NCBI GenBank assembly: GCA_023251555.1
Contig: JAHEYN010000010.1
Location: 1-64,000 of the forward strand
Direction of reading: 5' to 3'
DNA: 64,000 nucleotides
Source of the DNA: Bacteroidota bacterium
GTDB lineage: Bacteria > Bacteroidota > Bacteroidia > AKYH767-A > JAHEYN01
The notes beneath the pieces were generated by a model. That model saw only the letters and a list, made by a program, of their open reading frames with translations, was not told where the DNA came from and did not search any database. This document shows, piece by piece, positions 6,900 to 11,130 of this stretch (positions are counted from its first letter, which is position 1; each line of letters opens with the position of its first letter). The position numbers and the translations under genes were made by a program.

Positions 6900-7676
6900 T
6901 TATTGAACGGAAATTTTCTGCAGATCTTTCCTTCCGGGTGTTTCTACCCTGATAAAATACATTCCTTCCGGGAGCATACCCAGGTCAAGTGGGAAAATTC
7001 TTTGCCCGTTAAATGCTGCTGTTGTAATTTCCCTTCCGGCCAGGTCAAGTACCCGGACAATCCCGCTTCCTGTATAATCGCCTGCATCAAGATACACTTG
7101 CTTTCCTGCAGGATTGGGAAATATATTGAATGTGTGTTTGTTATAGTTGTTGTTAACCGACGAAACAACAGAATTTATCACTGCTACGGCATCAATTTCG
7201 TTCCAGCCGGTGCGGTCGGGGGAGTTAATGGCCAGCCGTACTTCCGTTACGACAAAAGAAGTCATGGGGAACCCTACCCGCAGAATACGGGCAACGGAAA
7301 TGGTATCCACCGGGTGGCTGTAAACCACTTCCCACAAGCCTGTGCCTGGGTTTTTGACGTACACAGTGTCAGTGAACCCGCAGTTGTATGTTTCGTAAAC
7401 CCATATAGAATCAATGGGAAGAAAATTGGAAAAGTGGAGCTCAAGGAATTCTCTCTGTCCGTCCATGTTTTGTGATGTCCATGAAGTTGGAATATCACCA
7501 TAATTCGGGTAGGTGTTTGGTGTATCAAGCACCTGTTTGGCGCTCCAGTTTGTGGAAGTGTATTCACTGCTGAAACTGATTACAGAGTCTGCATAGGTTA
7601 TGGTTTGTCCGAATACCGCATAATGTCCCGAGAGAGCGGCTATAAGCCCCAGGCAGGAAAGATAGAGATTCTTCAT
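6900..7676 (-). CDS. Secreted protein with T9SS type A sorting domain
   Basis: 258 residues. An N-terminal signal peptide (MKNLYLSCLGLIAALSGHYAVFGQ) is followed by a beta-sandwich region of about 130 residues, rich in aromatic residues and resembling discoidin/F5-8C-type binding domains. The last 75 residues or so match the Por secretion sorting tail: FNIFPNPAGKQVYL, then VRVLDLAGREI, then LPEGMYFIRVE and a final basic strand. The protein should cross the outer membrane by the type IX system and be surface-attached or released. The binding target is unknown. Confidence 0.82.
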   Translation of the reverse strand: MKNLYLSCLGLIAALSGHYAVFGQTITYADSVISFSSEYTSTNWSAKQVLDTPNTYPNYGDIPTSWTSQNMDGQREFLELHFSNFLPIDSIWVYETYNCGFTDTVYVKNPGTGLWEVVYSHPVDTISVARILRVGFPMTSFVVTEVRLAINSPDRTGWNEIDAVAVINSVVSSVNNNYNKHTFNIFPNPAGKQVYLDAGDYTGSGIVRVLDLAGREITTAAFNGQRIFPLDLGMLPEGMYFIRVETPGRKDLQKISVQ

Positions 7677-7738
7677 AGTGTGGATTGTTATTTAGGTGTA
7701 TATGTCTGAAATAAAAGAATAACCCCGGAGGGGGTGAG

Positions 7739-7768
7739 TAAAAAAGGAAGCACTGGGGCTTCCTTTTT
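7739..7768 (-). terminator. Rho-independent terminator of the thrS-infC-rpmI-rplT operon
   Basis: A perfect 11-bp inverted repeat (AAAAAGGAAGC at 7741-7751, GCTTCCTTTTT at 7758-7768) has a 6-nt loop. On the minus strand it lies just after the rplT stop and the stem runs into TTTTTTAC. T-runs on both sides mean it could act in both directions. Confidence 0.88.
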
Positions 7769-7783
7769 TTTAATGAGAAGACT

Positions 7784-8128
7784 TTACTTTACCGATTTCA
7801 GGACGGCCTCAAATGCCTCCGGGTGATTGGTGGCAAGGTCTGCGAGAGCTTTCCTGTTCAGGGTAATATTCTTCTTTTTTATTTCTCCCATGAATTCAGA
7901 ATAGGACATACCATGCATCCTGGCAGCTGCGTTGATACGCTGTATCCATATAGCCCTGTAGGTTCTCTTTTTGAGCTTCCTGTGTTTGTAGGCGTATTGT
8001 AAGCCTTTTTCAACCGTGTTCTTTGCTACGGTCCATACATTGCCCCTTGCCCCGAAATTTCCTTTGGCGCGTTTGAGAACTTTTTTCCTCCTCTGCCTGG
8101 AGGCTACTGCATTTACTGATCTTGGCAT
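7784..8128 (-). CDS. rplT: 50S ribosomal protein bL20
   Basis: bL20 binds 23S rRNA early in 50S assembly and is a known translational autoregulator in other bacteria. The 114-residue protein starts [21 protein letters not shown] and carries the conserved RDLWI-type segment as [13 protein letters not shown] and the MSYSEFM loop. It is the last gene of thrS-infC-rpmI-rplT, followed by a strong terminator. An unusually long 86-nt spacer separates it from rpmI and holds a GC-rich hairpin ending 14 nt before the start codon. Confidence 0.98.
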
Positions 8129-8142
8129 ACTGCTTGGTTTTG

Positions 8143-8193
8143 TGGCGTCAGCGGCCCCGGACTATCCGTGAACACTTTGTGGGCTGATCGCCA
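8143..8193 (-). promoter_or_regulatory. Candidate regulatory RNA hairpin before rplT
   Basis: In the rpmI-rplT spacer, TGGCGTCAGC (8143-8152) pairs with GCTGA-T-CGCCA (8183-8193), giving ten pairs with a single bulge plus two further G-C pairs inside. On the minus-strand RNA the hairpin ends 14 nt before the rplT AUG. Because bL20 controls its own translation through structured mRNA sites in E. coli and B. subtilis, an L20-responsive role is a reasonable inference. The stem itself is seen directly; the function is not. Confidence 0.5.
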
Positions 8194-8214
8194 GGTTAGT
8201 AATTGATTGTTGTT

Positions 8215-8415
8215 TTATTTTCCGATGGTGAGCATCCGCTTTACTCTTCCTTCGTCACTTACATTGACCAGGGCGACTTTTTCAAGCCCCCGTTTCCTTT
8301 TAGTGGACTTTTTAGTGAGAATATGATTCTTGAAGGCGTGCTTCCGTTTAATTTTTCCTGTTCCGGTGATAAAGAATCTCTTCTTTGCACTGGAGTTGGT
8401 TTTCATCTTTGCCAT
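8215..8415 (-). CDS. rpmI: 50S ribosomal protein bL35
   Basis: Small basic 50S protein of 66 residues. It begins [25 protein letters not shown] and has the conserved KRKRGL and MLTIGK elements of the family. It lies between infC and rplT in the common bacterial order infC-rpmI-rplT, 26 nt after infC. Confidence 0.97.
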
Positions 8416-8441
8416 TGTTCCTGTTTTTAGTGACGGGTTTA

Positions 8442-9038
8442 TTAATTTTTTTTCTTTCCTGCCGGGGCAAGGTGGAGAAACATCCTGTTTCCTTCCAGCT
8501 TGGGAAGGGATTCTACCTTGCCGTATTCCGAAAGTTCCTGAGCGAATTTAAGCAGCATGAGCTCCCCCTGCTCTTTATATGTGATTGACCTGCCGCGGAA
8601 GTGTACATACGCTTTTACTTTTGCTCCTTCTTCGAGGAAACGTTTTGCATGCTTTACCTTGAAGTTAAAGTCGTGTTCATCGGTGGTAGGCGTGAAACGG
8701 AGTTCTTTCACTACTACCTTTGCAGCCTTGGATTTCAGCTCCTTTTCTTTTCTTTTTTTCTCATACAGGAATTTCTGATATTCAATTACCCTGCAGACAG
8801 GCGGGCTGGCGCCCGGTGCTATCTCAACAAGGTCAAGGCCTCTATCGGCTGCTATCTTCAATGCATCCCTGATGGGATAGACATCGGATTTGATGTTTTC
8901 CCCCACCAGCCTTACTTCAGAAGCAGTGATAAACTCATTGATTTTGTGCTCAGGCTCCCTTTTAAAGACTCTTGGGGTCCTGAACGGAGGCCTGTTACCA
9001 TAGAAAGGCCTTCCTGTGTTGTAATGAAAAGTAGCTAT
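8442..9038 (-). CDS. infC: Translation initiation factor IF-3, probable AUA start
   Basis: IF-3 binds the 30S subunit, checks the start codon and prevents early 50S joining. The N-terminal domain ([18 protein letters not shown]), linker and C-terminal domain ([29 protein letters not shown]) are complete. No in-frame ATG, GTG or TTG precedes the essential HKINEFI segment; the first GTG, at 8906, would remove about 44 residues. Between an in-frame TAA and this region the only plausible start is ATA at 9038-9036, placed 7 nt after a perfect TAAGGAGG (9053-9046). This gives 198 residues. A rare start codon is known for infC, where IF-3 uses it for autoregulation. Confidence 0.9.
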
Positions 9039-9057: not shown

Positions 9058-11007
9058 TTATTGGTTAGACTTAATGTTTTTTTCTACTTCTTCTTTTATT
9101 AAGCAGATAAATTCGTTTATTTTATAAGATCCTTTATCTCCTTCTCCATGCCTGCGGACAGAAACTGTTTCTTCCGCCTGTTCTTTTTCCCCGACAATCA
9201 GCATAAAAGGCATCTTTTTTACCTCTGCGTCACGTATCTTTTTCCCAATCTTTTCGCCCCTTTCGTCAAGAGAGGTGCGAATATCGGAATTATTTAATAA
9301 ATTCAAAACTTTGAGTGCATAATCATTGTACTTATCGCTTACCGGCAAAATGATGGCTTGCTCAGGGGTGAGCCAGAGCGGGAAGTTCCCGGCACAGTGC
9401 TCTATCATCACTGCCATGAACCTTTCAAGGGAGCCGAAAGGTGCCCTGTGTATCATCACCGGCCTGTGTTTCTGGTTGTCGCTGCCTGTGTATTCGAGGT
9501 CGAACCGCTCCGGGAGATTATAATCCACCTGTATGGTGCCGAGTTGCCATGCTCTGCCTAAGGCGTCTTTTACCATAAAGTCGAGCTTGGGGCCGTAAAA
9601 AGCGGCCTCCCCCGTTTTAACAACGGTTGTAAGTTTCTTTTCATCGGCAGCTTCAATGATTTCTCTTTCCGCCATCTCCCAGTGTTCATCGGAACCGATG
9701 TATTTTTCTTTGTTGTTTTTATCGCGGAGCGATACCTGTGCCGTGTAATTTTCGAAGCCAAGCGCGTTAAATACATAGAAAACCAGGTCTATAACCTTAA
9801 TAAATTCTTCCTTTACCTGGTCAGGGCGGCAGAACAGGTGAGCATCATCCTGAGTGAAGCCGCGAACCCTTGTCAGCCCGTGCAGTTCCCCGCTCTGCTC
9901 ATAACGGTACACGGTGCCAAACTCTGCCAGGCGAACCGGAAGGTCGCGGTAGGAGCGGGGTTTACTTTTATAAATCTCGCAATGGTGGGGACAGTTCATT
10001 GGCTTGAGGAAAAACTCTTCCCCTTCAACCGGGGTGTGTATCGGCTGGAAAGCATCTGCACCATATTTTTCATAGTGCCCGGAAGTGACATACAACTGCT
10101 TGCTGCCGATATGCGGAGTTATTACAGGCTGGTATCCTGTCCTTGTCTGCGCTTTCTGCAGAAAATTTACGAGACGCTCTCTCATTGCGGCTCCCTTTGG
10201 AAGCCAAAGCGGCAGTCCGGAACCAACTTTTTCTGAAAACGTAAACAACTCAAGCTCTTTCCCGATTTTGCGGTGATCTCTTTTTTTCGCTTCTTCCAGC
10301 AGAGTGAGATATTCGGCAAGGTCTTTTTGTTTAGGGAAAGTAATCCCGTAAATGCGTGTCAGTTGCTTGTTCTTTTCATCCCCCCTCCAGTATGCGCCTG
10401 CAATATTCATGAGCTTTACCGCCCTGATGAACCCTGTGTCTGGAATGTGAGGTCCCCTGCACAGGTCTGTAAATCCGCCCTGGGTATAAAAGGAAATGGT
10501 CCCGTCTGCCAGGTCTTTCAGGAGATCAAGTTTGTACTGATCTCCTTTTTCTTCAAAATAAGCAATGGCATCTTTCTTTGAAATTTCTTTTCTCTCGTAT
10601 TTATTTCCCTGCCTTGCCAGCTCCAGCATCTTGTCTTCTATCTTTTTAAAATCATCCGAAGAAATTTCCCTGCCGCCGAGATCCACATCGTAGTAGAATC
10701 CGCTTTCAACGGGAGGGCCAATGCCAAACTTTATGCCGGGATAAAAAGTTTCCAGGGCTTCTGCCATCAGGTGTGCGGAGGAATGCCACATGGTAGATTT
10801 TCCTTCCTGGTGCTCCCAGGTCAGCAATTCCAGTGCTGCATCCGAACGTATGGGCCGCGCGGCATCCCAGACTTCATCGTTTACTTTCGCCGACAGGACA
10901 TTCCTTGCCAGCCCCTCGCTGATGCTTTTTGCAATCTCAAGGGCTGTAATGCCTTCAGGGTACTCCCGCACTGCTTTATCCGGAAAAGTAATTTTGATTG
11001 TGTTCAT
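9058..11007 (-). CDS. thrS: Threonyl-tRNA synthetase
   Basis: Class II aminoacyl-tRNA synthetase that charges tRNA-Thr. An N-terminal TGS domain (about residues 1-60) comes first, then the editing domain with [11 protein letters not shown] (HxxxH), then the catalytic core with the zinc-ligand segment [10 protein letters not shown] and motif 2 ([22 protein letters not shown]). The anticodon-binding domain is C-terminal. The start at ATG 11007 ([13 protein letters not shown]) gives the standard 649 residues; the 27 residues encoded upstream are not family-like. It is first in thrS-infC-rpmI-rplT, with 19 nt to infC. I saw no T-box in the leader. Confidence 0.99.
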
Positions 11008-11034
11008 TGAGTGAACGGTCTTTTTTAGGGCATG

Positions 11035-11042
11035 CAAAGATA
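11035..11042 (-). promoter_or_regulatory. Possible -7 promoter box for thrS
   Basis: TATCTTTG on the minus strand matches the Bacteroidota -7 consensus TAnnTTTG, 28 nt before the thrS start. No good TTTG -33 box was found at the right distance, so this is only a candidate. Confidence 0.4.
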
Positions 11043-11130
11043 ATGAAATTCGTGAAGCATACCCGGCCGTTTGGAACCTTCGAATCATATTTTTTATCGT
11101 GATTACTTATGAGGAAAATTAAAAATGTAA

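Follow-up and report, generated by a model that had tools for sequence, protein, structure and literature searches.

A covarying, rRNA-like hairpin before rplT in Bacteroidia and its probable role as an L20 translational operator

The window analyzed in the present study, a 64-kb stretch of DNA from a Bacteroidota bacterium, carries an infC-rpmI-rplT operon on its minus strand. In the direction of the operon, a thrS ORF (9058-11088) lies upstream, followed by the infC ORF as listed (8442-8906), the names of both being read from the translations, and then by rpmI, encoding ribosomal protein L35 (8215-8415), and rplT, encoding ribosomal protein L20 (7784-8128), which is proposed herein as both the regulator and the regulated gene. 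Between rpmI and rplT is a spacer of 86 nt, running from 8214 down to 8129 on the minus strand, and the element described herein is housed in this spacer. A pattern scan revealed no terminator-like site within 8129-8214, and a scan for sigma-70-type promoters, a type of scan whose reach does not extend to Bacteroidota promoters, gave none in 7700-8500. Just 3' of rplT, at 7740-7771, there is a hairpin with an A run before it and a T run after it, which looks like the operon terminator; the pattern scan gave another site, 7722-7735, and not this one.

A sequence-only reading of this DNA had described a bulged ten-pair stem in the 86-nt spacer, with 14 nt between it and the rplT AUG, as a candidate L20 autoregulatory RNA. 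The stem was confirmed at 8193-8143, with the pairs, the bulge and the distance as described; the minus strand, on which it lies, had been left unstated. In the stem, UGGCG-A-UCAGC (8193-8183) is paired with GCUGACGCCA (8152-8143), resulting in ten pairs, 7 of them G-C, and one bulged A at 8188, and 14 nt separate it from the AUG at 8128. The whole element, as matched by the covariance model R1 (built from 13 relatives, with the window left out of training), spans 8139-8199 on the minus strand, and this was the only match of R1 in the window at E<=1 (30.5 bits, E 4.3e-4). From 5' to 3' on this strand, the element comprises a conserved, unpaired UAACC (8194-8198); the P1 5' arm UGGCG (8189-8193, partner 8143-8147); the bulged A (8188), at the position of an internal loop or bulge in relatives and of a bulged C in rRNA helix 40; the P2 5' arm UCAGC, including a conserved AGC (8183-8187, partner 8148-8152); AAAG (8175-8178), with an unpaired AA and a G, proposed as the L20 contact; the variable hairpin P3 (8154-8173), the counterpart of the start of 23S helix 41; a C at 8153 between P3 and P2 that is invariant in the 48-row alignment A1; and the 3' arms of P2 and P1, GCUGA and CGCCA (8143-8152). 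In the fold of the window, the invariant C is the partner of the G in AAG, and the W base after this G is bulged. The linker to the start codon occupies 8129-8142, and in relatives it is A-rich at -12 to -15, a translation-enhancer position. For the 89 nt made up of the spacer and the rpmI stop codon, a folding energy of -20.9 kcal/mol was obtained, which 3 of 200 shuffles equaled (z -2.41); with longer flanks (141 nt), z was +0.20, and 115 of 200 shuffles did as well. Single-sequence folding is therefore weak evidence, being unremarkable once the longer flanks are added, and it is the comparative evidence that decides for the element.

For this comparison, rplT was located in 56 of 61 genomes (the own genome and its relatives), and the upstream stretch was examined in all 56. 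The element was judged present by eye in 48 of these loci, the other eight (L028, L039, L049, L050, L051, L054, L055 and L057) being set aside; a strict pattern parsed 44 of the 56, and four of the 12 loci it missed (L017, L029, L032 and L056) were matched by R1 at E<=0.05. The consensus is UAACC-N-P1-(internal loop or bulge)-N-AGC-N2-5-AAG-W-P3-loop-P3'-C-GCU-N-(loop)-P1'-AAAAA, with the AUG about 10 nt further on, and the core follows the order P1, AGC:GCU, unpaired AA, a G:C pair and a variable hairpin; some relatives have AGU:ACU or GGU:RCC in place of AGC:GCU. In an alignment of 81 rows, the middle G:C of AGC:GCU is found in all 81, and the inner pair is C:G in 65 and U:A or U:G in the remaining 16. 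In five loci of the Flavobacteriaceae type (L111, L144, L145, L148 and L120), GGC and AAG are separated by long inserts or the 5' part is altered.

The sequence-only reading had named covariation and conservation among relatives as the points on which its proposal would stand or fall, and the pairs of the element covary strongly, whether counted from anchored positions, in 13 rows or in 81. First, the arms of P3 were measured outwards from AAG+1 and from C-GCY in an alignment made without pairing information. In this anchored count, P3 positions 1-4 were paired in 39, 42, 40 and 37 of 42 distinct rows (shuffled means 24.9, 32.2, 28.5 and 24.5) and positions 5-6 in 29 of 38 and 26 of 37, and none of 2000 shuffles equaled any of these six counts; the seventh position was unremarkable (13 of 28 paired, with 221 of 2000 shuffles as high). 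The first P2 pair took many forms in the 42 rows (UA 19, CG 7, GC 6, AU 6, GU 2, other 2). Second, in A2, a 13-row MAFFT alignment, 95.4% of the cells were paired, compared with 79.0% when shuffled and at most 42.1% when slid; the rows were selected to have AGC and AAG three bases apart, which favors a clean alignment and makes AAG invariant by choice. Third, the 81-row alignment, which was fitted to the model and hence leans towards the model structure, gave 95.7% paired, compared with 72.8% when shuffled and at most 52.6% when slid. Two of the five covariation measures were less striking, namely pairs with both sides changed (11 of 12 in the 81-row alignment, equaled by 17 of 500 shuffles; the 13-row number was equaled by 3 of 500) and further pair types (equaled by 3 of 500 shuffles for 13 rows and 30 of 500 for 81 rows). 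Since the shuffles do not preserve relatedness, all of these shuffle counts are not to be read as probabilities. RNAalifold on the unfitted 48-row alignment gave only -2.06 kcal/mol and missed P3 because of its variable loop length.

The spread of the element was determined with R1 and two further models: R2, trained on 81 rows that include the window, and R3, built from eight Flavobacteriaceae-type rows because R2 misses this type. At E 0.001, R1 matched 50 of 295 Bacteroidia genomes, and the own genome was without a match in this whole-genome search; R2 matched 114 of 295, and the own genome was matched by R2, which had been trained with the window. In a phylum sample, R2 matched 14 of 296 genomes, and R3 matched 30 of 296; the phylum-sample rows displayed, which leave out 246-262 matchless ones, were all the own genome or Bacteroidia. 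Each genome listed with a match had one match, with at most 19 candidates scored per genome. All 73 fetched matches (30, 13 and 30 from the three models; 70 distinct sites, with three common to R2 and R3) lay between rpmI and rplT, the place having been checked for these fetched loci, a part of all matches, and R3 also gave one weak match away from rplT (L029 2491-2509, E 0.041). When one genome was taken for each of 63 families with rplT, R2 matched directly before rplT in 39 (18 of 24 in the first batch and 21 of 39 in the second, E<=0.006), as the predicted conservation of the stem would have it. The training set of R2 overlaps 16 of the 18 first-batch families and 3 of the 21 second-batch families, leaving as the independent part 18 matches in 36 second-batch families outside the training set. 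In these 18 matches, AAG follows RGY in every case and AACC is present in 16. The other 24 of the 63 families were without an R2 match, and two more families (L199 and L221) have what look by eye like divergent forms. Finally, 80 loci were named, of which L113 and L153 were without upstream DNA; 64 of the remaining 78 were matched loosely, 26 by R1 (E<=0.83), 27 by R3 (E<=0.0005) and 11 more by R2 (E<=0.064). The carriers include records of Flavobacterium, Chryseobacterium, Pedobacter, Mucilaginibacter, Fulvivirga, Chitinophaga and Rikenellaceae. Among the 14 unmatched loci, five have spacers of 13-38 nt (L101, L138, L152, L159 and L164), and nine look divergent by eye (L090, L092, L094, L106, L110, L118, L124, L125 and L146). 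No recognizable element was observed before rplT in L138, L152, L164, L196 and L197; L138 and L152 are uncultured Bacteroidales and L164, in which the element is absent, is a Prevotella record, and the rpmI-rplT spacers of these three are just 28-38 nt. If a lineage has lost the element, studies of gut Bacteroidales could overlook it.

The position of the element before rplT is nearly constant. In 50 of the 64 matched named loci (25 R1 and 25 R3 matches, with L099, L102 and L162, whose gaps are 11, 13 and 11 nt, left out), the gap between the element and the AUG is 9-14 nt (sd 1.2), and it is 9-15 nt with the other 14 named loci included, while the rpmI-rplT spacers in the 50 loci range from 73 to 199 nt. 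The element is thus tied to the start of rplT and not to rpmI. Within the gap, A is found at -12 in 43, at -13 in 49, at -14 in 48 and at -15 in 44 of the 50 loci, and none of them has GGAGG, AGGAG or GAGGA within the last 20 nt before the AUG. Bacteroidota ribosomes are reported to leave Shine-Dalgarno pairing unused (PMC10931766, PMC9976891), and in Flavobacterium johnsoniae A at -12 and -13 promotes initiation, which is also tuned by mRNA structure (PMC6847099). In the window there is no U run 3' of the stem, and the stretch there is A-rich in the 50 loci.

The likeness to rRNA was examined at the helix 40/41 junction. L20 is said, in work of 2005 by Guillier et al., to bind at helices 40/41, and we take the helix 40/41 junction of 23S rRNA to be the L20 site. 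In the Rfam LSU model, the site matching E. coli 23S 991-1003 has CCAU-(C)-AGC paired with GCU-AUGG, then UAA and GAA unpaired, and then a GGU:ACC helix. The order of parts in the element matches that of the 23S site: P1, a bulge or loop, AGC:GCU, unpaired AA, G:C and P3. A profile of the 5' strand was made from three blocks (AACCNGR, NAGC and AAG) of the 75 of 81 rows that parse, with gap ranges of 3-6 and 0-8, wider than in the elements themselves. In six Bacteroidia 23S genes and that of E. coli, its top match was AACCCAGAC..AGCUAAGG at the helix 40/41 junction (18.4-19.1 bits): the own 23S (locus L058) scored 18.55 bits at this site, with the next, unrelated match at 13.3; five other Bacteroidia 23S, for three of which the scan took in the entire fetched locus, flanks included, scored 18.5-19.1 bits; and E. 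coli 23S scored 18.44 bits, with the next at 16.84. Dinucleotide-matched Markov sequences equaled the 23S score in 43 of 1000 cases (own) and 56 of 1000 (E. coli), or about 5%, so that the strength of the match by itself is moderate; in a separate Markov run the score was equaled by 4 of 150. The stronger point is that the top position falls on the helix 40/41 site, with the qualification that the seven 23S genes are homologous and therefore not independent tests. The rRNA-like site suggested from the sequence was the top match of the profile in 23S rRNA, and the recognizable part is AGC:GCU with the unpaired AA rather than the loop. The likeness has limits. In the own 23S, the helix 40/41 site was insignificant for R1 (4.3 bits, rank 11, E 9.7); AGC and AAG are separated by one base in the rRNA and mostly by three or four in the elements; the rRNA site has an unpaired GAA on its 3' side, which the element is without; and the AACC likeness may be a coincidence, because the AACC match in the rRNA lies in a separate hairpin. 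The 23S genes were found in 6 of 10 genomes, and the scan covered five full-length copies but neither the pieces of G075 nor a second set of G172. In these two genomes, 23S matches are broken into neighboring pieces (L253, L258, L260 and L263 in G172; L257, L259, L261 and L262 in G075), in G172 beside a whole copy, and they may be fragmented genes, genes with inserts or pseudogenes.

Herein, we propose that the element is a cis-acting L20 translational operator of Bacteroidia, a reading we hold with considerable confidence. The initial suggestion of an L20 autoregulatory RNA thereby gains support from the covariation, from the R2 matches in 39 of 63 families and from the top match in 23S rRNA, which together point to such a role. 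From the structure, place, spacing and rRNA likeness observed above, we infer that L20 binds the element, that rplT is repressed and that 30S is blocked sterically. L20 in surplus over free 23S rRNA would bind the element as a copy of its own site. The base of the bound hairpin, about 15 nt before the AUG, would adjoin the A-rich stretch at -12 to -15, and the hairpin might thus block the entry of 30S on rplT. L20 would thereby repress its own translation, with no Shine-Dalgarno sequence to hide and no terminator.

Other explanations should be weighed against this proposal. The element might bind L20 and yet act otherwise, with the binding or absence of L20 governing how the message between rpmI and rplT is cut by RNase or how stable it is, giving the proper protein ratio; its place between two genes of one operon and the varying length of the upstream spacer, as a processing site would allow, agree with this, but the distance to the AUG is fixed within a few bases and the A-rich -12 to -15 stretch directly follows the helix, which indicates initiation rather than cleavage, and we regard such a role as unlikely. 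A shade less likely is a structured initiation region without L20 binding, in which the hairpin tunes rplT or couples it to the translation of rpmI. The hairpin does end near the AUG, and mRNA structure tunes initiation in F. johnsoniae (PMC6847099); however, the unpaired AAG and AACC kept outside the training set would not be needed by a plain hairpin, the same bases match the 23S L20 site, and matched genomes have one match each among at most 19 candidates scored. As the element lies in the infC-rpmI-rplT operon, L35, IF3 or a different rRNA-binding protein might be the ligand. This is improbable given that the element lies next to rplT, with a nearly constant distance between the two, and is similar to the helix 40/41 junction, which we presume to be the L20 site. 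Moreover, in both E. coli and B. subtilis the operon is known to be repressed by L20 (PMC10931766). A transcription attenuator or terminator, although the B. subtilis L20 leader works through an L20-stabilized terminator (PMC6097659), is hardly credible with no terminator-like site in 8129-8214, no U run in the window and an A-rich rather than U-rich stretch after the stem in the 50 loci.

Returning to the L20 operator, we consider it fairly probable, at lower confidence, that the operator is class-wide in Bacteroidia, from Flavobacteriaceae to Sphingobacteriaceae and Rikenellaceae, that it is a compact copy of 23S helix 40/41 that covers the A-12/A-13 enhancer and suits non-Shine-Dalgarno ribosomes, and that several lineages with short spacers have lost it. 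If so, L20 mimicry of rRNA would have arisen on a further scaffold, and in a class that does without Shine-Dalgarno pairing repression must act on other initiation signals. A missing Rfam family would also be supplied, and L20 autoregulation would become testable in Flavobacterium johnsoniae.

The element can be compared with several known RNAs. The sequence-only reading knew of no described element at this place in Bacteroidota, but a candidate had been listed in 2021 by Fremin and Bhatt. There, HMP2_39 is a 49-bp candidate structured RNA, mostly of Alistipes, directly upstream of L20 and a possible ribosomal leader (PMC8040213). The element of A. senegalensis (L094) measures 49 nt, counted across its outermost P1 bases, and shares the core, which is common to five Rikenellaceae rows. 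The Alistipes loci L090 and L094 were matched by none of R1, R2 and R3, and their kinship with the window type rests on place and core. Since the Alistipes element agrees with the description of HMP2_39 in length and place and has the core of the family, HMP2_39 is probably the form that the element takes in a single genus, and would be one tip of a class-wide element if our proposal is true. As described in the main account, HMP2_39 goes no further than "mostly Alistipes" and comes without an rRNA comparison, so that the class-wide family and the rRNA comparison go beyond that account (PMC8040213). Within our survey, made for the most part on open-access main texts, no RNA other than HMP2_39 was described at this location in Bacteroidota. 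An RNA antisense to L20, with a spread including Bacteroidetes (PMC7160235), is another thing than the element.

With Rfam 15, no family reached its gathering score in the window and none was found at the element, and sub-threshold matches to other families lay away from it. RF00558, the L20 leader reported in Firmicutes and Thermotogales (PMC3766115), was absent from the matches obtained at E<=5 in 6900-8800, nor was it found in the loci of 10 relatives at E<=1. Membership in RF00558 is not supported, with no model match, a place before rplT and not infC, and no terminator-like site in the spacer. The B. subtilis/Firmicutes leader has, as here, a two-helix-junction L20 site in the infC-rpmI-rplT mRNA, but it lies upstream of infC and acts by transcription attenuation, whereas the present element lies before rplT (PMC6097659). 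Two G-C pairs in succession and an AA dimer are given as features of the rRNA site that L20 leaders preserve (PMC7247131), and the element has both. The predicted Deltaproteobacteria L20 leader shares these parts; however, it belongs to another phylum, and its conserved parts are parted by a helix of several pairs, whereas here they are adjacent as in 23S (PMC7247131). Table 1 of that article gives rpsT as the gene regulated by this leader, probably a slip for rplT. In E. coli, as proposed here, L20 represses translation through rRNA-like sites at the rpmI-rplT operators; there, two sites are used, one of them a long-range pseudoknot, whereas here a single compact rpmI-rplT hairpin is found (PMC10931766).
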